34,092 bases of DNA from Burkholderiales bacterium (lineage in GTDB: Bacteria; Pseudomonadota; Gammaproteobacteria; Burkholderiales; Casimicrobiaceae). The stretch spans positions 1-34,092 of the forward strand of contig JAICXH010000023.1 of NCBI GenBank assembly GCA_025981645.1, given 5' to 3'. The first letter of the stretch is position 1. Each line of letters starts with the position of its first letter. A model generated the notes under the pieces. That model was not told where the DNA came from, did no database searches, and saw only the letters and a program-made list of their open reading frames with translations. Both the position numbers and the translations under genes were made by a program. This document shows positions 1,521-27,567 of this stretch, one piece after another.

Positions 1521-3050
1521 GTGACTGATCTTGGCTACCTGTTCCACGGATTCGCCGTCGCACTGACGCCGTTCAACCTCGGGCTGATGCTGCTCGGCAT
1601 CATCCTCGGCGTGATCATCGGCGTGCTACCCGGCCTCGGTGCGGCCAACGGGATCGCGATCCTGCTGCCGCTGACGTTCACGATGCCGCCGACGTCGGCG
1701 ATCATCATGCTGTCATGCATCTACTGGGGGGCGTTGTTCGGCGGGGCGATCGCATCGATCCTGTTCAACATCCCCGGCGAGCCGTGGTCGGTCGCGACGA
1801 CCTTCGAGGGCTACCCGCTCGCGCAGCAGGGCCGCGCGGGCGAGGCGCTGACGACGTCGTTCACGTCGTCGTTCGTCGGCGCCTTCGTCGCCGTCGTGAT
1901 GATCACCTTTCTCGCTCCGCTGATCGCTCGCTTCGCGCTGCAGTTCGGGCCGCCCGAGTACTTCTCGGTCTACCTGCTGACGTTCTGTAGTTTCGTCGGT
2001 ATGGGCAAGGGGTCGCCCGCCAAGATCCTCGCGTCGATGATGATCGGTTTTGCGCTTTCGGCGGTCGGCATCGACATCGTGACGGGTGGCCTGCGGCTCA
2101 CCTTCGGCTTCACGAGTCTCCTGAAAGGCTTCGACTTCCTGATCGCGGTGATCGGCCTGTTCGGCATCGGCGAGATCCTCCTCTCGATGGAGGAAGGACT
2201 GTCGTTCAAGGGCAGCACCGCGCGGATCAATCCAAAGATCGTGTTCGAGACGTGGCGCAAACTGCCGCGCTACTGGCTGACGTTCATCCGCAGCACGATC
2301 ATCGGCTGCTGGATGGGCATCACGCCCGGAGGCGCGACGCCGGCGTCGTTCATGAGCTACGGCGCCGCCAAGAAGTTCTCGAAGGACGGCGACAAGTTCG
2401 GCACCGGCGTCGTCGAGGGGCTGGTGGCACCGGAGACCGCCGCACATGCGGCGGGTACGAGCGCGTTGCTGCCGATGATCACGCTCGGCATCCCGGGCTC
2501 GCCGACGGCTGCGGTGCTCCTCGGCGGCCTCCTCATCTGGGGCCTGCAGCCGGGCCCGCTGCTGTTCCAGGAGAAGCCCGACTTCGTCTGGGGTCTGATC
2601 GCCAGCATGTACCTTGGCAACGTCGCCGGACTGATCGTCGTGCTGAGCCTCGTGCCGCTCTTCGCCAGCATCCTGCTGATTCCGTTCTCGATCATCGCCC
2701 CGGTGATCGTCGTCATCTGCGCGATCGGCGCCTTCACGGTCAACAACTCGATGCACGACATCTGGTTCATGATCGGCTTCGGAGTAGTCGGCTACGCGTT
2801 CAAGAAACTCAGCTATCCGCTTGCGCCGATGGTGCTGGCGCTGGTCCTCGGCAACAACGCCGAGGACTCGTTCCGGCAGGCGATGCTGATGTCGGGCGGA
2901 AGCCTGTCGATCCTGTGGTCGAACTGGCTGGTCGGCAGCATCTCGACGCTCTCGGTCGTCATGCTGTTCTGGCCGCTGATCTCGCAGGGCATTCGCATGC
3001 TGATCCCGTCGAAGCGCGACAAGCTCGCGAGCGAGCAGCCGGTCGATTAG
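1521..3050 (+). CDS. tctA: TctA large membrane subunit of tricarboxylate transporter
   Basis: Large permease subunit of the TTT family, which carries the solute across the inner membrane with the binding protein and TctB. The 509-residue length matches the family (about 500). The N-terminus shows the typical glycine-rich GVLPGLGAANGIAILLPLTF signature at about residues 36-55, then many hydrophobic helices; the second half repeats a related signature around ITPGGATPASFMSYGAAK (about 263-280) and LGIPGSPTAAVLLGGL (about 322-337). The GTG start at 1521 follows a CAGGAG ribosome-binding site. The gene ends the tct operon; the next gene begins 186 bases later behind its own promoter candidate. Confidence 0.96.
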   Translation: MTDLGYLFHGFAVALTPFNLGLMLLGIILGVIIGVLPGLGAANGIAILLPLTFTMPPTSAIIMLSCIYWGALFGGAIASILFNIPGEPWSVATTFEGYPLAQQGRAGEALTTSFTSSFVGAFVAVVMITFLAPLIARFALQFGPPEYFSVYLLTFCSFVGMGKGSPAKILASMMIGFALSAVGIDIVTGGLRLTFGFTSLLKGFDFLIAVIGLFGIGEILLSMEEGLSFKGSTARINPKIVFETWRKLPRYWLTFIRSTIIGCWMGITPGGATPASFMSYGAAKKFSKDGDKFGTGVVEGLVAPETAAHAAGTSALLPMITLGIPGSPTAAVLLGGLLIWGLQPGPLLFQEKPDFVWGLIASMYLGNVAGLIVVLSLVPLFASILLIPFSIIAPVIVVICAIGAFTVNNSMHDIWFMIGFGVVGYAFKKLSYPLAPMVLALVLGNNAEDSFRQAMLMSGGSLSILWSNWLVGSISTLSVVMLFWPLISQGIRMLIPSKRDKLASEQPVD

Positions 3051-16944: not shown

Positions 16945-18783
16945 ATGGCTTCCGATGCGTTCGGTCCGTGGCATCCGGGCGTCGAGTCGACGATCCCCGA
17001 CGCGCTGCGGCCGCTCGCCACGATCCTGCGGCCCGGGAACGTGTTCACCGGCGCCGCGCGTGCAGCGGAACTGCACGACCTCACCGGTCTTCCGCTCGCC
17101 GAGCTCGTTGCGTGGAGACCCGAGCGTCTCGCGCTGCACGAGCTCCTCGTCCGCGTCACCGCGAGCGTTTCGGTCCCCGATCCGGAGGGCTCGAAGATCG
17201 AGGACCTGGGCATCAACTTCCGCGAGATCACCCGGCGGATCCTGTCGCGCTACGTCGAGCCGAGGATGGAGGCCGTCGCGTCGGCGTGGAGCGCGGCGAG
17301 GCGCGAGCTCGCCGAGCTCGTGTCGCAGGCGCTCGCTGAAACGACCGCCGGTACGCCTTTGGTGCCCGCGCACCCGGTGCGATGGAGCATGCGGGTGCGC
17401 GACTGGTTGGGGTGGCGGCGTGACGCGCGTTCCGTTTCCGCGGTGTGCGACGCGACCGGGCACGGGTCCGCGTTCGATCTGCTGACGCACCGGATCACGG
17501 ACTGGGAGCGCCGCGCGCGCGCCGCGTCCGCCGGACGCGAGCGGGCGGCGCTGCGCGCACTCGCGAGGGTCGTATCGGCGGTACTGGTGAGGCACGGAGC
17601 GATTTGGGGAAGCCGCGAGCTCATCGCGTCGCTCGCCGTCGACATCGCGTGCAACGCGTTCGCCAGCGACGAGATCGGGCGCCTCGTCGAAGCGTGGGTC
17701 GTCGAGGCTGCGAAGGCGGAGGGTTACGCGCTGCTGCCGCGCCAGCCGCGGCCGGTCATCATGAACACGAAGGGGCCGTCGGCGTCCGGCAAGAGCACGC
17801 TACGGCCGCTCCAGAAGAAGCTCGCAGGCGAGCTCGGCGTCGACTGGAGCGAGTTCGCACTGATCAGTCCGGACATCTGGCGCAAGCAGCTCATCGATTA
17901 CGCGAGCCTCGGCGAAGCCTACAAGTACGGCGGAGCGTTCACCGGCGAGGAGCTGCACATCATCGATCAGAAGCTCGACCGCTACATGGCGCGGCGCGCG
18001 GCGGACGACGACGTGCCACACCTCCTGATCGACCGTTTCCGCTTCGACAGTTTCGCGCCCGATTCGAGCGAGGCCGGCAGCAATCTGCTGACGCGCTTCG
18101 GGCAGGTCGTCTATCTGTTCCTGATGGTCGCGCCGCCCGAAATGCTCGTCGAGCGCGCATGGAAGCGTGGCCTCGACGTCGGCCGCTACAAGGCGGTCGA
18201 CGACACGCTCGCCCACGCGGTCGAGGCCTACTCCGGAATGCCCGACCTGTTATTCACCTGGATCGACCGGCGCGACAAGGACGTCCACTTCGAGTTCCTC
18301 GACAACAGCGTGCCGAACGGCGAGCGTCCGCGCACGGCGGCCTTCGGCCACAACCGCAAGCTCAACGTGCTCGATGTTCGCTGTCTGCTCGATATCGAGC
18401 GCTTCTGCCGGATCGACGTCGACGCGACGGCGCCCGAGCGCCTGTACCGCGATCGGAACGTGCTCGACGCGGCGCGCAACGCGGGCTTTCTCGCGCGCTG
18501 CGTTGCACGCTTCCCCGAGGTCAACTTTGCCGACGAGTCGACCGGACGCATCTACGCGCACATGGCGTCGGGAGCGATCGCCTGGGTCGATCGCGTGGGG
18601 CTCGAGCGCGCGTTCGAGGACACCGACACGCGCGACGGGCTGCTCGCCGTGATTCCCGCACTGCGCGACTTTCCGTCGCCGGATGTGGCGGCGTCGGCGC
18701 CGGTGTCACCGGTATTTCTGCGCGACGACCTCGATGTCGCCGTGTTCCGGACGATCGGTCAGTGGGGTGCGGGCCGGCGCTGA
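16945..18783 (+). CDS. Large protein with zeta-toxin-like kinase domain
   Basis: Protein of 612 residues. The N-terminal 260 residues are helical and unassigned. A P-loop kinase domain begins with Walker A GPSASGKST at residues 277-285, followed by LISPDIWRKQ with Asp310 where zeta toxins have a catalytic Asp, then EELHIIDQKLDRYMARRA and RFRFDSF, a pattern like the zeta-toxin/kinase superfamily. Later, Arg-rich VERAWKRGLDVGRYKAVDDTL could provide phosphate-binding residues. The C-terminal 200 residues are unassigned. There is no obvious ribosome-binding site; the AT-rich start (TTAAAGCTTAAG) precedes ATG 16945. Its end overlaps the convergent reductase gene by 25 bases. No small antitoxin gene is adjacent, so a housekeeping or regulatory kinase role is as likely as a toxin. 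Confidence 0.8.
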   Translation: MASDAFGPWHPGVESTIPDALRPLATILRPGNVFTGAARAAELHDLTGLPLAELVAWRPERLALHELLVRVTASVSVPDPEGSKIEDLGINFREITRRILSRYVEPRMEAVASAWSAARRELAELVSQALAETTAGTPLVPAHPVRWSMRVRDWLGWRRDARSVSAVCDATGHGSAFDLLTHRITDWERRARAASAGRERAALRALARVVSAVLVRHGAIWGSRELIASLAVDIACNAFASDEIGRLVEAWVVEAAKAEGYALLPRQPRPVIMNTKGPSASGKSTLRPLQKKLAGELGVDWSEFALISPDIWRKQLIDYASLGEAYKYGGAFTGEELHIIDQKLDRYMARRAADDDVPHLLIDRFRFDSFAPDSSEAGSNLLTRFGQVVYLFLMVAPPEMLVERAWKRGLDVGRYKAVDDTLAHAVEAYSGMPDLLFTWIDRRDKDVHFEFLDNSVPNGERPRTAAFGHNRKLNVLDVRCLLDIERFCRIDVDATAPERLYRDRNVLDAARNAGFLARCVARFPEVNFADESTGRIYAHMASGAIAWVDRVGLERAFEDTDTRDGLLAVIPALRDFPSPDVAASAPVSPVFLRDDLDVAVFRTIGQWGAGRR

Positions 18784-19748
18784 TCGACGCTCTTCGCGCG
18801 CAGTCGCGTGAGGGCAAGGATGGTGTCGACGATCGGCGTCGGTACGCCGGTCGCGCGGCCAAGCTCGCTGACCACGCCGACGAGGGCGTCGACCTCCATC
18901 GGGCGCCCCTGCTCGAGGTCCTGCAGCATCGACATCCTGTGCGGCCCGAGGGCCGTGGCGCCGGAGAGCCGGCGCGACGCCTCGACGCGAAGCCTCAAGC
19001 CCAGCTTCGCTCCGATCGCTGCCGCTTCGTCCATCATCGCGACGAGCACGGCGCGCGTTCCCGTATCGGTGGTGACGACGTCGATCGTCGCCGACGTCAA
19101 CGCGCTCACCGGATTGAAGCAGAGATTGCCCCAGAGCTTGAGCCAGATCTCGTCGCGAATGTCGTCGCGGATCGGCGCTTCGAAACCGGCGGCGACGAAG
19201 AGTTCGTGCAGCGTCTCGATGCGCTCGCTGCGCCGGCCGTCGGGTTCGCCGATGGGAAAGCGCCCTCCGTGCTCGTGAACGATGACCCCCGGCTCGACGA
19301 TTTCGGTTGCCGGAAACACCACACAACCGACGGCGCGCGCATAGCCGAGCCGGCGTCGCTGCGCGCCACCCGGATCGACGCTCTCGAGCGCGAGTCCCTG
19401 GTACGAAACGCCCGGCGTTTCGAAGAACCAGTAGGGCAGGCCGTTGCTCGCCGTGACGATCGTCGTCCGCTCGTCGACGAGCGGCGCGATCGCGTCGAGC
19501 GCGGCGGGAATCGAGTGCGCCTTCAACGCAATGATGACGTAGTCCTGCGGTCCCAGTTCGCGCGGATCGCCAGTCGCGCGCACCGGCGTCGTTCGCTCCT
19601 CGCCCGCGATGCGCAGGACGAGCCCGCGGCGCCGCATTGCCTCCAGGTGCGCGCCGCGCGCGACGAGGCTGACGTCGATCCCGGCGCGCGCGAACTCGGC
19701 ACCCAGATAGCCGCCGATGGCGCCGGCACCGAAGATTGCGACCTTCAT
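18759..19748 (-). CDS. Ketopantoate-reductase-like protein 2
   Basis: Second ApbA/PanE-fold protein, 329 residues. It begins with the Rossmann motif MKVAIFGAGAIGGYLG, has KAHS and SNGLPYWFF at the active-site side and DEIWLKLWGNLCFNPVSALT with the catalytic Lys and Asn in the C-terminal domain. It is clearly related to the other copy at 15765-16832 (shared IWLKLWGN..FNP.SALT and RMSMLQD/KTSMLQD), so the pair arose by duplication or joint transfer. Its start codon overlaps the matB stop in ATGA, showing translational coupling to an acyl-CoA synthetase. Reduction of an acyl-CoA or 2-oxo acid made by that enzyme is a reasonable hypothesis. Use in pantothenate synthesis is not excluded, although other pan genes are absent here. 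Confidence 0.9.
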   Translation of the reverse strand: MKVAIFGAGAIGGYLGAEFARAGIDVSLVARGAHLEAMRRRGLVLRIAGEERTTPVRATGDPRELGPQDYVIIALKAHSIPAALDAIAPLVDERTTIVTASNGLPYWFFETPGVSYQGLALESVDPGGAQRRRLGYARAVGCVVFPATEIVEPGVIVHEHGGRFPIGEPDGRRSERIETLHELFVAAGFEAPIRDDIRDEIWLKLWGNLCFNPVSALTSATIDVVTTDTGTRAVLVAMMDEAAAIGAKLGLRLRVEASRRLSGATALGPHRMSMLQDLEQGRPMEVDALVGVVSELGRATGVPTPIVDTILALTRLRAKSVDQRRPAPH

Positions 19749-21250
19749 GCGGAGAAGCGCTCGCGCAGCACGTTCTTCTGCACCTTGCCCATCGTGTTGC
19801 GCGGCAGCGCGTCGACGACGTGCACGCGCTTGGGCACCTTGAAGCTGGCGATGTCGCGCTTCAGCGCCGCGATGATGGCGTCGCCGTCGACGAGCTCGCC
19901 GGGCTTCGTCACGACGATCGCCGTCACCGCCTCGCCGAAATCGGCGTCCGGAATGCCGATGACCGCCGACTCGGCGACGCCGGGCATCACGTCGATACGC
20001 TCCTCGACCTCCTTCGGATAGACGTTGAGGCCGCCGCTGATGATCAGGTCCTTCGAGCGCCCGGCGAGGCGCAGGTAGCCGGCGGCATCGCCGTCGGCGA
20101 CGATCTCGCCGAGGTCCCCGGTGCGGAACCAGCCGTCGGCGGTGAATTCCTCGCGGGTCCGGTCGGGGAGCCGCCAGTAGCCGGCGAACACGTTCGGCCC
20201 GCGTACCTGCACGCTGCCAAGCGTTCCCGGCGGACACACGCGATCGGCATCGTCGGCGATGCGCACACTGATCCCCGGCAGCGGGCGCCCGACGGTCCCC
20301 GCCGCGCGGATTCCGGCAAGCGGGTTCGACGCGATCATCCCGGTCTCGGTCATGCCGTAGCGCTCGAGGATCGCGTGCCCGGTCCGCGCGCGGAACGCCT
20401 CGAAGGTCTCCGCGAGGAGTGGCGCCGAGCCGGAGACGAACAGGCGCATACCGGGGCAGAGGTCGCGCGTGAACCGGTCTTCGGCGAGGAGCCGCGCGTA
20501 GTAGGTCGGCACGCCCATCATCACGGTCGCCGATCGCAGCGCGTGCAGCACCGGCTGCGCGTCGAAGCGCGGCAGCCACAGCATCCGCGCACCGGCGAGG
20601 AGGACGCAGTGAACGGCAACGAAGAGGCCGTGCACGTGGTAGACGGGGAGCGCATGCAGCAGTACGTCGTCGCGCGTGAACGCCCAGGCCTCGACCAGAG
20701 CGAGGGCGTTCGACGCGAGGTTGCGATGGGTGATCATCGCGCCCTTCGACCGCCCGGTCGTTCCCGATGTGTAGAGGATGGCCGCGAGATCGTCCGGTGC
20801 CGATGTTGCCGTCGCGAACGTCGCAGGCTCGTCGCGCGACCGGTCGCCGAGCTCGCCGCCCTGTGCATCGAGCGTCAGTACCCTCGCCTCCCGGGCGATT
20901 GCGGCGATCTCGCCGAGTCGCTCGGTCGAGCAGACGATCACCGTCGGTGACGCGTCTTCGAAGAACCACTCGAGCTCGCTCCTGCGGTAGCCGGTATTGA
21001 GCGGCAGGTAGACGAGTCCCGCGCGCAGGCACGCGAGATAGAGCGCGATCACCTGCCAGTGCTTGCCGGTCTGGACGGCGACGCGGTCGCCGCGGCGGGA
21101 TGCCGCCGCGACGAGCGCGTTGGCGATCTTCGCCGACTGGGCGGCGAGCTCGTCGTAGTGGACGACCGGCCCGCCGGGAATCAGGATGCAGGGTTGTTCG
21201 GATCCGCTCGGGAAGTGCGCTTCGAAGAGCGCGTACAGGTTGGCATTCAT
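19745..21250 (-). CDS. matB: Malonyl-CoA synthetase-like acyl-CoA ligase
   Basis: ATP-dependent, AMP-forming ligase of 501 residues that matches MatB malonyl-CoA synthetases throughout. Seen: adenylation motif ILYTSGTTGRSKG (158-170), HALPVYHVHGLF (199-210), MRLFVSGSAPLLAET (268-282), ERYGMTETGM (296-305), GPNVFAGYWR, GWFRTGDLG and the hinge/lysine region SGGLNVYPKEVEE, with the C-terminal catalytic lysine in NTMGKVQKN. MatB converts malonate, CoA and ATP to malonyl-CoA and AMP. In the A5 motif this protein has TETGM where MatB typically has TETNM (from memory), so another small diacid such as oxalate or methylmalonate is possible. The ATG at 21250 is chosen by family N-terminus (MNANLY); in-frame ATGs occur 9 and 15 codons upstream. 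Its stop overlaps reductase 2. Confidence 0.88.
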   Translation of the reverse strand: MNANLYALFEAHFPSGSEQPCILIPGGPVVHYDELAAQSAKIANALVAAASRRGDRVAVQTGKHWQVIALYLACLRAGLVYLPLNTGYRRSELEWFFEDASPTVIVCSTERLGEIAAIAREARVLTLDAQGGELGDRSRDEPATFATATSAPDDLAAILYTSGTTGRSKGAMITHRNLASNALALVEAWAFTRDDVLLHALPVYHVHGLFVAVHCVLLAGARMLWLPRFDAQPVLHALRSATVMMGVPTYYARLLAEDRFTRDLCPGMRLFVSGSAPLLAETFEAFRARTGHAILERYGMTETGMIASNPLAGIRAAGTVGRPLPGISVRIADDADRVCPPGTLGSVQVRGPNVFAGYWRLPDRTREEFTADGWFRTGDLGEIVADGDAAGYLRLAGRSKDLIISGGLNVYPKEVEERIDVMPGVAESAVIGIPDADFGEAVTAIVVTKPGELVDGDAIIAALKRDIASFKVPKRVHVVDALPRNTMGKVQKNVLRERFSA

Positions 21251-21378: not shown

Positions 21379-22548
21379 GTGAAGATTCACGAATACCAGG
21401 CGAAGGAACTGCTGCGTGCCAGCGACGTGCCGGTTCCGCGCGGCAAGCCCGCATTCTCCGTCGAAGAGGCCGTCGCCGCGGCGCGCGAGCTCGGCGGGCC
21501 GGTGTGGGTGGTGAAGGCGCAGATTCACGCCGGAGGGCGCGGCAAGGGCGGCGGCGTCAAGCTCGCGCGTTCGCTCGACGAAGTGCGAATGCTCGCCGGA
21601 CAGATCCTGGGCATGCAGCTCGTCACCCACCAGACCGGCCCCGCCGGCCAGAAGGTGAGGCGGCTCCTGATCGAAGAAGGCGCCGACATCCGCAAGGAGC
21701 TCTACGCGGCACTGGTCGTCGACCGGACCGCGCAGCGCGTCACGCTGATGGCGAGCGCCGACGGGGGGATGGACATCGAGGAGGTGGCGGCGAGGACGCC
21801 CGAGCGCATCCACCGCGTCGCGATCGATCCGGGCCGCGGCCTGACGGCCGACGACGCCGATGGTCTCGCGCGCGAGATCGGCGTGCCGGAGGCGAGCGTT
21901 CCTGCCGCGCGGGCGGTGTTCCAGGGGCTCTATCGCGTGTTCGAGGCGACCGATGCGTCGCTGGTCGAGGTCAACCCGCTCGTCGTGACCGGGGACGGAC
22001 GCGTCGTCGCGCTCGATGCGAAGCTCAACTTCGACGCCAACGCGCTCTTCCGGCATCCGGAGATCGCCGCTTTGCGTGATCTCGACGAAGAGGACCCCGC
22101 CGAGATCGAAGCGTCGAAGTACGACCTTTCGTACATCTCGCTCGACGGCGACATCGGCTGCCTCGTCAATGGGGCCGGGCTCGCGATGGCGACGATGGAC
22201 GTCATCAAGCTCTACGGCGGCAGCCCGGCCAACTTCCTCGACGTCGGCGGCGGTGCGTCGGCGGAGAAGGTGACCGAGGCCTTCAAGATCATGCTTCGCC
22301 ATCCGGGACTGAAGGCGATCCTCGTCAACATCTTTGGCGGCATCATGCGCTGCGACGTGATCGCGCAGGGCGTGATCGCGGCGTCGCAGGCAGTCAGGCT
22401 GACGGTGCCGCTGGTGGTGCGGATGAAGGGTACCAACGAGGACGAAGGCAAGGCGCTCCTCGCGCAGTCCGGCCTGCCGATCATCACCGCCGGCGACATG
22501 GCCGACGCCGCGCGCAAGGTCGTCGAGGCCGCGCACGGCCAGCGCTGA
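21379..22548 (+). CDS. sucC: Succinyl-CoA synthetase beta subunit-like (ADP-forming)
   Basis: Beta (ATP-grasp) subunit of an ADP-forming acyl-CoA synthetase, 389 residues against 388 in E. coli SucC. The N-terminal [12 protein letters not shown] is the family start, reached from GTG 21379 behind [27 protein letters not shown] holds the nucleotide-binding lysine and glycine loop, [14 protein letters not shown] and [10 protein letters not shown] the Mg-ATP site, and LDVGGGAS plus [11 protein letters not shown] the contacts with the alpha subunit and succinate end. It is followed 54 bases later by the alpha subunit. The usual place of sucCD is next to sucAB or mdh; here the pair precedes oxalyl-CoA decarboxylase. 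Malate-CoA ligase or another diacid ligase is an alternative specificity. Confidence 0.92.
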
Positions 22549-22602
22549 TCCGGCGACCGACGTGAGACAACGAGCGACGTCCACCAACGAGAGACGGGAC
22601 CG

Positions 22603-23478
<876 letters not shown>

Positions 23479-23553
23479 GCGCAATTGATGCAGTAAGCGG
23501 GACTACAATAATGGGTCGACGGCAAAGCGTCGGGCGACCTTGGAGAACGCCAC

Positions 23554-25347
23554 ATGGACAATGCCACTGCAGTACGTAACGCCACCGGGTCCGCGACCGC
23601 CATCAAGACCAGCGAAGCGCCTGCCGCACCTGTTGCCGAGACCGAGGAGACCGACGGCTTCCACCTCGTCATCGACGCGTTGAAGCTCAACGGGATCGAC
23701 ACGATCTTTGCGGTACCAGGCATCCCGATCACCGACCTCACGCGCAAGGCGCAGGCGGCCGGCATCCGGGTGATCTCGTTTCGACACGAACAGAGCGCGG
23801 GCTACGCCGCGTCGATCGCCGGCTACCTGACGCGGAAGCCGGGCGTGTGCCTTACCGTGTCGGCGCCGGGTTTCCTCAATGGCCTCACCGCGCTCGCCAA
23901 TGCGACGACCAACTGCTTTCCGATGATCCAGATCAGCGGCTCGTCGGAACGCGAGGTCATCGACCTGCAGCAGGGCGATTACGAGGAGATGGATCAGCTC
24001 GCGATCGCGAAGCCGCTCGCCAAGGCCGCCTTTCGCGTGCTGCACGCCGAGGACATCGGAGTCGGGGTCGCGCGCGCGATCCGTGCCGCGGTCTCGGGCC
24101 GGCCGGGGGGCGTCTACCTCGACCTGCCGGCGAAGCTCTTCCCGCAGGTGATGGACGCCGTGACCGGAGCGTCCACGGTGATCAAGGTGGTCGACCCGGC
24201 GCCGAGGCAGATCCCCTCGCGGGAAGCGGTCGATCGCGCGCTCAACCTCCTCAAGGGTGCGAAGAAGCCGCTCATCATCCTTGGCAAGGGGGCGGCGTAT
24301 GCGCAGGAGGATACCGCCATCCGCGCGCTCATCGAGAAGACGGGCATCCCGTACCTGCCGATGTCGATGGCGAAGGGGTTGCTGCCCGACACGCACGAGC
24401 AATCGGCGGCCGCAGCGCGCTCGTTCGTGCTGCCCGAGGCTGACGTCGTCGTGCTGATCGGTGCCCGCCTCAACTGGCTGCTGTCGCACGGCAAGGGCAA
24501 GACCTGGGGAGGCAAAACTCCGACGGCGTGGGGCGGACAGCGCTACATCCAGATCGACATTTCGCCGCAGGAAGCCGACAGCAACGTGCGCATCGATGCG
24601 CCGGTCGTCGGCGACATCGGCTCGTGCGTCTCGGCGCTCGTCGCCGGCATCGGCACATCGTGGCCGAAGCCGCCGTCCGAATGGCTCGGTGCGATCGCCG
24701 AGCGCAGGAATCGCAACGTCGCGAAGATGGCCGAGACGCTCGCGAAGAATCCGTCGCCGATGAACTTTCACAGCGCGCTCAACGTCGTGCGCGACATCGT
24801 CGGGGCCAACCCCGACGCCTACTTCGTCAACGAGGGCGCCAACGCGCTCGATTTTACGCGCAGCATCGTCGACATGGCGAAGCCCCGCAAACGGCTCGAC
24901 GTCGGTACCTGGGGCGTGATGGGCATCGGCATGGGGTTCTCGATCGGCGCCGCCGTCGTTGGCGGCGAGCAGGTGATCGCTGTCGAAGGCGACAGCGCGT
25001 TCGGCTTCTCCGGCATGGAAGTGGAGACGATCTGCCGCTACAAGCTGCCGGTATGCATCGTGATCCTCAACAACAACGGCGTTTACCGCGGCAACGAGGT
25101 CAATCCGACCGGAGGCGCCGATCCGCACCCGCTCGGCTTCGTCAAGGCCGCGTCCTACGAAAAGCTGATGGAAGCGTTTGGCGGGGTCGGCGTTCGCGTG
25201 ACCACTCCGGTGGAGCTTCGCGCGGCGATGGAAGAGGCGCTGCGCTCGAAGCGGCCGACGCTCATCAACGCACTGATCGACGAGAGCGCCGGAACCGAGA
25301 GCGGGCGCATCTCCAACCTCAATCCCGTATCGAAGAAGAAGTCCTGA
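23554..25347 (+). CDS. oxc: Oxalyl-CoA decarboxylase
   Basis: Thiamine-diphosphate enzyme that decarboxylates oxalyl-CoA to formyl-CoA and CO2. The 597-residue product matches Oxalobacter formigenes OXC along its length. Landmarks: catalytic Glu79 in [12 protein letters not shown] (Glu56 in Oxalobacter), [68 protein letters not shown] and the ThDP/Mg motif [18 protein letters not shown] (479-496) with [10 protein letters not shown] (506-515), then the C-terminal [13 protein letters not shown]. The N-terminus is about 23 residues longer than the Oxalobacter enzyme. TGGAGA precedes ATG 23554; the 75-base gap has a TACAAT hexamer (23504-23509) but no good -35. No frc is nearby, so the source of oxalyl-CoA is not established. 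Confidence 0.97.
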
Positions 25348-25375
25348 ACCCGGGCGCGCGTGGCCCGCGTGCCCG

Positions 25376-26713
25376 ATGACGAAGCGTTCGCCCGCTGTTG
25401 ACGAGGAAGGCCCGGCGCGCGAGCGCATCCGCTCGTTTGCCGACCCGGGCAGCGTCGAACTGCTGCCGTCGGCGGGCGCGAGCCCGCATCTCGCACGCTT
25501 CGGGATCGCCGCACGCGACGACGACGGCATCGTCGGCGCGCGCGTGCGCGTCGCCGGGCTGCCGATGCTCGTCGCCGCGCAGGATGCGAGCTTTCTCGGC
25601 GGCAGCGTCGGTGCGAGGCACGCGCAGGCGCTGCAGTCGCTGTTCGGGCTCGCGCGCGCCGAGTCCGCCGCTGCGGTGGTGCTGCTGCTCGCGTCGGGCG
25701 GCGTGCGACTGCACGAAGCGAACGCTGCCGAGCTCGGTCTCGCGCGCGCGCTCACCGCGCTCCTCGATGCGCGAGCGGCGGGGGTCCCGGTGCTCGCGAT
25801 CGCCGTCGGCCACGTGTTCGGCGGCGCGTCGGTGCTCGCCTGCGCCGCCGATCGCCTCGCCGTGCTTCCGCAGGTGCGGATCGGACTCTCGGGCCCGCGC
25901 GTGCTCGAGTCGGTCCACGGCAAATGGGAACTCGATGCCGACGACGAACGCGACGTCGACCTCGTGTTCGGCGCGCTGTCGCGCACCCGCGCCGGCTACA
26001 CCGAGCTCGTCAAAGACGAGCCCGAGGCGCTGCGCGCATGGGCCGCACGCGCGGCGGGCCGGCGTGAGCCCTTTGATGCGCAGGTCTTTGCGGCGCACAC
26101 CTGGCTCGCGGCGCGCGTCGCCGCGGACGTGGCGCAGACGCCGGCGTTCGAAGCCTTGCCGTGCTTCGATGGCGCGGCGCCGGTCGACCCGGCCGGGCGC
26201 CTCTGGCGGCATCCGCGCTGCTGGCTGACGGCGCCGAGCTCCGGCGTGACGATCGGGCCCGCCGAGGCGCACGCGCTCGACAGTGCGCTGCTGCTCCACG
26301 TCGCCGGTGCGGGCGCCGCAGCGTCCGCGCCGCTCGTGCTCGTCGAGGATTCCGCCGGCCACGCCGTATCGCGCGCGGCCGAGATGCGCTTCGTCTCGCA
26401 GTATCTCGCGCATCACGCCGCCGTGCTTGCGCTCCTGCGCCACCGCGGCCGGCGCCTTGTCGGCCTCCTCGCGGGGACCTGTCACAGTGCGGCATTCTTC
26501 AGCCACGCGCTTCAGGCGGATGAGCGTTACGCCCTGCCGCAAGCAACGGTCGTCGCGATGGAGCCGACCGCGATCGCGCGGGTGACCGGCCTCGACGCCG
26601 CCCCGTTGATCGAGAACGATCCGATGCTCGGACATCCGGTGCGGCACTTCGCCGCGCAGGGTGGCGTTGTCGCAACGATCGACGAAGCATCGCTTTCGGC
26701 ACTCGGAATCTGA
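25376..26713 (+). CDS. Malonate decarboxylase beta-gamma (MdcD-MdcE) fusion-like protein
   Basis: Protein of 445 residues made of two crotonase-like carboxylase domains. Residues about 20-240 match MdcD: SVELLPS, GGVRLHEANA (108-117), HVFGGASVLAC (146-156) and RIGLSGPRVLE (168-178). Residues about 285-440 match MdcE: GHAVSRAAEMRFVSQYLAHH (328-347), RRLVGLLAGTCHSAAF (359-374), HALQADERYALP and ARVTGLD. In biotin-independent malonate decarboxylase these two subunits decarboxylate malonyl-S-ACP. The partners MdcA (transferase), MdcC (ACP) and the prosthetic-group genes mdcB, mdcG and mdcH are absent from the window. It begins 28 bases after oxc, so it is in the same operon, and its stop overlaps the next start by one base. 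A substrate bound to CoA is possible. The ribosome-binding site is weak. Confidence 0.8.
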   Translation: MTKRSPAVDEEGPARERIRSFADPGSVELLPSAGASPHLARFGIAARDDDGIVGARVRVAGLPMLVAAQDASFLGGSVGARHAQALQSLFGLARAESAAAVVLLLASGGVRLHEANAAELGLARALTALLDARAAGVPVLAIAVGHVFGGASVLACAADRLAVLPQVRIGLSGPRVLESVHGKWELDADDERDVDLVFGALSRTRAGYTELVKDEPEALRAWAARAAGRREPFDAQVFAAHTWLAARVAADVAQTPAFEALPCFDGAAPVDPAGRLWRHPRCWLTAPSSGVTIGPAEAHALDSALLLHVAGAGAAASAPLVLVEDSAGHAVSRAAEMRFVSQYLAHHAAVLALLRHRGRRLVGLLAGTCHSAAFFSHALQADERYALPQATVVAMEPTAIARVTGLDAAPLIENDPMLGHPVRHFAAQGGVVATIDEASLSALGI

Positions 26714-27567
26714 TGCACACGGACATCCGGCCGCCCGAGCCCATCCGCGTGGGCGCATGTGCGGCGATGCTCGCCGCCGTCATCTGGGTCACCGCCATGT
26801 CGCTCACCGTCGTCCGCGCCGCTGACGCGAGCACCGCCGCGTTGGCGGCTTCCGGCGCTCAGGCGCAGCGCCCCGACGGCGCGCGCGAGGACCGCTGGGC
26901 CGCCGAGGTCGCACCCGACGTCGTCGTCGGCAACGTCGTGTGGCTCGCGACCGCTTCGCGCCCGCGCGTGCTCGCGATCTATACCGAGCCCACTTCGCGA
27001 CCCGCGCGCGCGGCGGTCATCGTCGTGCACGGCATGGGAGTCAATCCCGACTGGGGAGTGGTCGGCGTCCTGCGCAGCGTGCTTCCCGACGACGGTTTTG
27101 CGACGCTGTCGGTGCAGATGCCGGTGCTTGCCGCCGACGCCCCGCGCAGCGCGTATCGCGCGCTCTTCCCGGAAGCAAACGAGCGGCTCGATGCAGCCTA
27201 CGCGTGGCTCTCCACACGCGGTTACGCGCGGATCGCAGTGGTCTCGCACAGCCTCGGTGCGGCGATGACCGATGCATGGCTCGCGGCGCCGCATCCGTCA
27301 CCGATCGCCGCGTGGGTGCCGGTCGGCATGCCGGTAGCGTTTTCGCGGCCGCCGCGCGAGCCGGTGCTGGACGTCGTCGCCGAGCACGACCTCGCCGACG
27401 TCGTCGCAGCGGCACCGGCGCGCCGGGCCGAGCTCGTTCACGTTCGCTGCTCGCGCGAGCTACGCATGCCCGGGGCCGATCACTACTTCGAACGCGGCGG
27501 CAGGAAGCTGGCCGCGGCGATCGTGGCGTTCCTCGACGAAGCGCTTGCGGCGCGCTGCGCCTACTGA
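26713..27567 (+). CDS. Secreted alpha/beta hydrolase, DUF3530-like
   Basis: Predicted exported alpha/beta-hydrolase-like protein of 284 residues. A hydrophobic N-terminal segment (about 15-36, ending VVRA) is a signal or anchor. The oxyanion segment [11 protein letters not shown] (105-115) and nucleophile elbow SHSLGAAM (Ser180) are clear; a late GADHYFE supplies the likely catalytic His, and [11 protein letters not shown] the acid. The arrangement resembles the DUF3530 family of periplasmic proteins, which has no firmly known role. The start overlaps the upstream stop (TGATG), so it is the last gene of the sucC-sucD-oxc-fusion operon. Why an exported hydrolase is coupled to cytosolic CoA chemistry is unclear. 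Confidence 0.78.

Follow-up and report, generated by a model that had tools for sequence, protein, structure and literature searches.

A single-chain MdcD-MdcE fusion recurrently paired with malonyl-CoA synthetase in Burkholderiales, a candidate carrier-free malonyl-CoA decarboxylase

The closest described counterpart of the protein analyzed here is the MdcD-MdcE pair of Pseudomonas aeruginosa malonate decarboxylase (PDB entries 5VIP, 5VIT, and 5VJ1), which has two crotonase-fold halves. According to the structural account of this enzyme, the oxyanion hole of MdcD is formed by the main chain at V121 and G162, and R180 lies near the pyrophosphate of CoA (PMC5534430). The mutational results in the same report indicated that the MdcE substitutions Q100E and S142A lowered the activity about tenfold, that Y102F had no effect, and that MdcE residues 242-268 contact MdcA, their deletion disrupting the complex (PMC5534430). 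In vitro, P. aeruginosa MdcDE decarboxylated malonyl-CoA with a k_cat of 2.3 per s. Its k_cat/K_m was 38-fold below that of human MCD, which makes it a poor malonyl-CoA decarboxylase, and the authors leave the physiological meaning of this activity open (PMC5534430). A second described system is the MatA-MatB module, which combines the decarboxylase MatA (PF05292) with a malonyl-CoA synthetase. A single chain of two crotonase-fold halves is also found in AccD6, PccB, and the transcarboxylase 12S subunit, and the acyl-CoA carboxylase carboxyltransferases act with carboxybiotin.

The window, a stretch of 34,092 nucleotides from a Burkholderiales bacterium (family Casimicrobiaceae; assembly GCA_025981645.1, contig JAICXH010000023.1), carries on its plus strand at positions 25376-26713 an ATG-initiated gene for a protein of 445 residues, designated FUS. 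An MdcD-like domain (residues 11-250, positions 25406-26125) is followed in the same chain by an MdcE-like domain (residues 293-439, positions 26252-26692), as delimited by NCBIfam models and PDB alignments. A beta/gamma malonate decarboxylase fusion of this length had been predicted from the letters of the window alone, together with its position 28 bases (25348-25375) behind the oxalyl-CoA decarboxylase gene oxc on the same strand (23554-25347, 978 bits), and both statements held. The Pfam scan at E ≤ 0.001 returned only Carboxyl_trans (residues 14-189, 42.5 bits, cut-off 22.3) and MdcE (residues 296-438, 77.7 bits, cut-off 32.7), with no match to the MatA family PF05292. The top NCBIfam models were MdcD beta (residues 11-250, 165 bits) and MdcE gamma (residues 293-439, 84 bits), which were under their cut-offs of 228 and 237, respectively. 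On sequence grounds, FUS is homologous to MdcD and MdcE, yet it is a member of neither family by NCBI's own thresholds. The same held more widely among the nine fusion chains scanned with NCBIfam: in the matches listed, none of eight chains passed either subunit cut-off, the ninth (L038) having no score there. The top PDB match was MdcD (5vip_B, E 2.4e-21), and the second half matched MdcE (5vip_A). A pattern scan of 84,980 species genomes, not exhaustive, yielded at least six relatives with 41-90% identity, which together with FUS make up the seven members of clade A. Between FUS and its nearest relative, L040, dN/dS over residues 17-445 was 0.057/0.570. Because of this ratio and the six relatives, FUS is regarded as a real gene maintained under purifying selection.

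The AlphaFold model of FUS, built from seven sequences, had a mean pLDDT of 67.7 and a pTM of 0.77; the N-terminal half was better, and the C-terminal half was weak, with pLDDT under 50 for residues 367-440. Foldseek aligned the N-terminal half with MdcD (5vit_D, TM 0.78 by target length). The structure prediction suggested at the outset was in this way informative for the MdcD half. The whole chain gave matches at 17-21 Å rmsd, too loose to place the two halves relative to each other, and most of the top ones were acyl-CoA carboxylase carboxyltransferases, from which one could argue for a subunit of a biotin-dependent carboxyltransferase, or for some other crotonase-fold enzyme acting on acyl-CoA, with no release of CO2 from malonyl-CoA. 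FUS does resemble AccD6, PccB, and transcarboxylase 12S in being a single chain of two crotonase-fold halves, but its sequence is closer to MdcD/MdcE (155-165 bits to MdcD versus 50 to AccD and 43 to MmdA). It also stood apart from AccD in a tree that had PccB-type proteins outside its scope, and we consider a carboxyltransferase role very unlikely.

Further fusions were collected from 250 genomes of the same order, Burkholderiales, and both halves of each chain were checked. Besides the window's own genome (G000) and a second Casimicrobiaceae genome (G083, whose fusion is the same gene as clade-A locus L045), chains of about 380-440 residues with both halves were found at no fewer than 17 loci in at least 15 genomes, and these were designated clade B. 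Two 430-residue frames with partial matches, in G109 and G246, were kept outside the fusion count. In a sample of 398 genomes of the phylum, searched with a mixed alignment at E ≤ 1e-40, matches were listed in 27 genomes; only that of the window spanned both halves, and the other 26 extended no further than profile position 285 of 417. At this strict threshold, fusions seem to occur mainly in this order. Among plasmid records, nine matched the FUS query, none of them covering 80% of FUS, and a clade-B query reached 80% coverage in 5 out of 29 records, with identities of 28-29%. The MdcD-half tree (50 rows, with canonical L016 and L017 of the FGGIG form left out) recovered canonical MdcD as one group (support 97/98) and clade B as another (99/97). 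Clade A grouped with canonical MdcD (93/80), with clade B outside and L045 apart from the other six clade-A members. A single clade of all fusions was not rejected (p-AU 0.167), and the branching order is unsure owing to long branches.

The residues of the MdcD half agree with the described active site. V110, G150, and R168 of FUS align with V121, G162, and R180 of P. aeruginosa MdcD, and both oxyanion motifs, GGVRL and FGG, are present; the loss of oxyanion-hole residues, named in the original prediction as evidence against itself, was not seen. The second oxyanion loop reads FGG in 23 of the 24 fusions and YGG in the remaining one. The first oxyanion position is Val throughout clade A (7/7) and Ala, Met, or Val in eight clade-B rows, a variation that need not matter since the contact is made by the main chain. 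In the MdcE half, H329, S371, and V331 of FUS occupy the places of Gln100, Ser142, and Tyr102. At the Gln100 place, all 21 canonical MdcE chains have Gln, clade A has His (7/7), and clade B has Gln in 10 and His in 7 chains; the clade-A His was counted against a malonyl-CoA decarboxylase. The Ser142 place holds Ser in 19 and Gly in 2 of the 21 canonical chains, Ser in 7/7 clade-A chains, and Gly in 17/17 clade-B chains. With S142A costing tenfold in P. aeruginosa, the clade-B glycine argues against a simple transfer of the mechanism.

The fusions also differ from the canonical enzyme at the C terminus. FUS ends 74 residues after S371; the chains continue for 74-82 residues past the Ser142 place in clade A (7/7) and for 55-77 in clade B (17/17), versus 111-133 in 21/21 canonical MdcE chains, fused canonical chains included (canonical locus L026, a short locus with no MdcE frame, was left out of this table). 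Because only 55-82 residues follow this place, against 111-133 in canonical chains, the MdcE docking tail is absent in all 24 fusions. FUS shares with P. aeruginosa MdcD-MdcE the two crotonase-fold halves, the oxyanion-hole motifs, the arginine for the CoA pyrophosphate, and, in clade A, Ser142. It differs in being one chain with no docking tail, in the clade-A His at Gln100, in scoring under both NCBIfam cut-offs, in its pairing with MatB, and in having no detectable MdcA or MdcC.

With respect to these carrier-system partners, the MdcA family (PF16957) scored over its cut-off in none of the 17 fusion genomes, compared with 15 of 16 genomes carrying canonical MdcD, and the MdcC family (PF06857) gave the same counts, 0/17 versus 15/16. 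Of the 17 fusion genomes, 15 have a completeness of 90% or more and a contamination of 5% or less. MdcA and MdcC had originally been reported missing from the window, and the genome search proposed then extended this result to the whole assembly (87% complete), in which neither was found; an mdc operon elsewhere in need of FUS, also named in the original prediction as evidence against itself, was not seen. A carrier-dependent malonate decarboxylase of the ordinary kind, with FUS as its decarboxylase part and MdcA, MdcC, and the prosthetic-group genes located elsewhere, would fit the fact that MdcD and MdcE are the closest sequences, the incompleteness of the window assembly, and a partial MdcA match of 23 bits, under the cut-off, in G023. 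Nevertheless, the absence of MdcA and MdcC over cut-off from all 17 fusion genomes and of the docking tail from all 24 fusions makes such an enzyme highly improbable, and hidden mdcA/mdcC genes were rejected on the same 0/17 count. Because MdcA, MdcC, and the MdcE tail are missing and the NCBIfam scores fall short of the cut-offs, FUS falls outside the carrier-dependent malonate decarboxylases. The only canonical genome lacking both MdcA and MdcC matches was G239, which is rated 100% complete and whose fused MdcDE keeps the docking tail (L048:7047-8714, same gene as L005); its congener G209 has both MdcA and MdcC.

The gene order around FUS was compared across clade A. A MatB-type malonyl-CoA synthetase is encoded on the minus strand of the window at 19745-21250 (ATG of MNANLY at 21250, frame open to 21292). 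As expected from the original prediction of a nearby synthetase, it scored 752 bits as malonyl-CoA synthase (NF005702, cut-off 558), and in the PDB it matched malonyl-CoA synthetase 4fuq with 560 bits and another malonyl-CoA ligase, 3nyq, with 241 bits, against 222 bits for the top oxalate-CoA ligase. A 2-dehydropantoate 2-reductase-like gene (PanE/ApbA, 18759-19748, minus strand) starts about at the end of MatB, and such a gene adjoins MatB in L040 and L044 too. Between MatB and FUS lies a plus-strand block that begins with sucC (21379-22548) and continues with sucD (22603-23478, profile match) and oxc. Behind FUS, a gene for a DUF3530 protein (26713-27567, plus strand) overlaps its stop codon, and the same gene stands 3′ of the fusion in L040-L043. 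Profile matches on the plus strand further identified the receptor TctC (25-885) and TctA (1521-3050) of a tripartite tricarboxylate transporter, and in L043 the Tct genes directly adjoin MatB.

In four of the seven clade-A loci (L041-L044), MatB and the fusion are immediate neighbors transcribed divergently, this MatB is 68-76% identical to the window MatB, and no matches to sucC, sucD, or oxc were found in these loci. The sucCD-oxc block separates the two genes in the window, at a distance of 4.1 kb, and in L040, where oxc still directly precedes the fusion. In the Casimicrobiaceae MAG of L045/G083, the fusion starts where a TauE-type transporter gene ends, and no MatB homologue was found in the genome at E ≤ 1e-90, which was counted against a partnership with MatB. 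Judged by gene order, MatB is the primary neighbor of FUS, and the seven loci suggest that its link to oxalate probably arose through a rearrangement specific to one lineage. The label of an orphan gene in an oxalate operon consequently had to be revised in both parts: the fusion recurrently pairs with MatB, and the oxalate setting appears secondary, since four homologues are paired with MatB in loci with no detectable oxc, sucC, or sucD. An action of FUS on oxalyl-CoA, formyl-CoA, or a product of Oxc within the sucCD-oxc operon would be consistent with the short distance to oxc on the same strand in the window and with the order in L040. The four loci in which MatB is adjacent speak against it, as does the substrate itself, since oxalyl-CoA lacks the beta-carboxylate typical of substrates of this enzyme family; there is little chance of an oxalate role, and a primary one was rejected on the evidence of L041-L044. 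The window also has sucC in one operon-like run with oxc (21379-25347), an odd place for an enzyme of the TCA cycle. No other SucC passed the cut-off in this assembly (87% complete); for that reason a dedicated oxalate-CoA ligase was rejected, and the sucCD product is more likely the TCA-cycle enzyme.

In clade B, a MatB homologue was located 51-357 bp from the fusion at 17/17 loci. Within the 250 genomes of the order, at least 66 MatB places were recorded in at least 64 genomes, made up of the 17 clade-B loci, the window, and 48 further surroundings that were fetched. The fusion stood within about 1.1 kb of MatB at 26 of the 66 places (4.1 kb in the window), and it adjoins MatB in several families of this one order. 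The 48 further surroundings contained the fusion alone (6), the fusion with MatA (2), MatA alone (18), or, as far as about 4 kb out or the end of the contig, no decarboxylase of either type (22). MatA was thus found at 2 of 26 MatB places with a fusion versus 18 of 40 others (Fisher test, p 0.001, relatedness being ignored); for the first 17 fusion loci and the window, MatA was searched by genome and contig instead of in fetched surroundings. Counted against a MatB partnership were the 22 surroundings with neither decarboxylase and two confirmed fusions that are not beside MatB (G018 and G185). In a single genome, G118, MdcD, MdcE, and MatB form one open frame (L038:6962-9781) of 939-952 residues depending on the start chosen, and its ligase part scored 720 bits as malonyl-CoA synthase. 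In G029, from the same genus, the fusion and MatB are separate genes a few bases apart.

In 12 of the 15 clade-B genomes, the fusion is accompanied by MatB, and the models detected none of MatA, MdcA, and MdcC. MatA was detected in 4 of the 17 fusion genomes and in 2 of the 16 canonical ones. The four include the window's genome, where MatA lies at G000:C149:72993-73676 (L046) with a profile match that skips about 38 positions, and three clade-B genomes. In G152 (L066) and G022 (L080), the fusion, MatB, and MatA stand in a row on one strand, and the two kinds of decarboxylase may act side by side there. Because of these MatA genes, some genomes offer a second candidate decarboxylase besides the fusion, and another substrate is possible. 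The substrate of FUS could be a malonyl-CoA bearing a methyl, ethyl, or hydroxyl group and supplied by the MatB-family ligase, leaving malonyl-CoA itself to MatA. The coexistence with MatA, the substituted malonates that MatB-family ligases accept, and the departures of the MdcE half from the canonical side chains in the active site would all suit this division of labor. We nonetheless regard it as rather unlikely, because the ligase is recognized by the malonyl-CoA synthase model (752 bits) and most clade-B genomes have neither MatA nor the carrier partners.

Fusion does not by itself mark a new type, and that idea was rejected. Three genomes (G166, G058, and G209) have canonical MdcDE fusions that resemble FUS in carrying the D and E halves in one open frame but that keep the docking tail and have MdcA and MdcC adjacent. 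New is the recurrent genomic form, in which a single chain has lost the tail, the carrier genes are not found, and MatB is adjacent or fused. In the titles and abstracts of the open-licence literature, which has most subscription journals outside it, no MdcDE chain paired with MatB was described.

The explanation we favor as likely is that FUS is a single-chain, biotin-free, and carrier-free malonyl-CoA decarboxylase serving MatB. It is favored because MdcA and MdcC are missing from 17/17 fusion genomes and the tail from 24/24 fusions, the oxyanion loop is kept, and the pairing with MatB recurs. The in vitro activity of P. aeruginosa MdcDE on malonyl-CoA provides a precedent for the chemistry, and the match of the N-terminal half to MdcD and the lack of MatA in 12 of 15 clade-B genomes also speak for it; the low efficiency of MdcDE with malonyl-CoA and the weak model of the C-terminal half were counted against it. 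Starting from the computed results (homology, conserved and altered residues, absent tail, undetected partners, MatB pairing, and place shared with MatA), we infer the reaction, its substrate, free CoA as the carrier, and the role of the transporter. A carboxylate transporter, Tct here and encoded by neighboring TauE- or TRAP-type genes elsewhere, would probably import malonate, which MatB would activate to malonyl-CoA. The MdcD half would bind most of the CoA thioester, with the SGGV and FGG loops forming the oxyanion hole that holds the thioester carbonyl, and the MdcE half would take the free carboxylate, with His329 standing in for Gln100 and Ser371 for Ser142. CO2 would then leave, the enolate would be protonated, and acetyl-CoA would be released. 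FUS would thus represent the catalytic half of malonate decarboxylase stripped of MdcA, MdcC, and the MdcA-docking tail of MdcE. The carrier-free decarboxylation of a CoA thioester originally predicted for the fused MdcDE gained support from the comparison of partners, tail, loop, and MatB, while malonyl-CoA decarboxylation in vivo stands as a proposal drawn from sequence.

In the best reading, FUS works like MdcDE and takes the place of MatA, as a member of neither the carrier-dependent malonate decarboxylases nor the MatA family. It resembles the MatA-MatB module in the proposed two-step route and in often occupying the same place near MatB, where it would fill the role of MatA, but MatA belongs to an unrelated decarboxylase family. 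If so, malonyl-CoA decarboxylation next to MatB would have been solved a second time by an unrelated enzyme, and the weak malonyl-CoA activity measured in vitro for P. aeruginosa MdcDE (PMC5534430) would acquire a physiological meaning. A bolder version is doubtful: that these proteins are a second malonyl-CoA decarboxylase family, unrelated to MatA, using free CoA and linked to MatB, that is older than the carrier-dependent enzyme, which gained MdcA, MdcC, and the tail later. The position of clade B outside clade A and canonical MdcD in the tree would suit this order of events, but a single clade of all fusions was not rejected. The fusions offer a comparison set for the gain or loss of the carrier by that enzyme. 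Annotation would benefit as well, since the models of the malonate decarboxylase subunits hit these proteins under cut-off although the carrier system that the names imply was not found. They also offer a single-chain enzyme with no carrier system for steering malonyl-CoA, and one genome has a natural ligase-decarboxylase chain.

Several further observations concerned individual loci. In G069, which has one of the eight fusion-type loci among the 48 further MatB surroundings, a single in-frame TAA at the linker splits the two halves of the fusion near MatB (L095:2532-3800). This may reflect reversion to two separate subunits, gene decay, or a mistake in the assembly. A TauE/SafE-family gene stands beside the fusion's MatB in G216 (L033:4007-4750) and beside the fusion in G083 (L032:11356-12165), and these transporters are possible malonate carriers. 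Just upstream of the fusion-MatB pair, a gene for an M20-family peptidase/amidohydrolase was present at three loci (L033:7577-8707, L036:6423-7685, and L039:5174-6298), a hint that malonate may derive from an amide.
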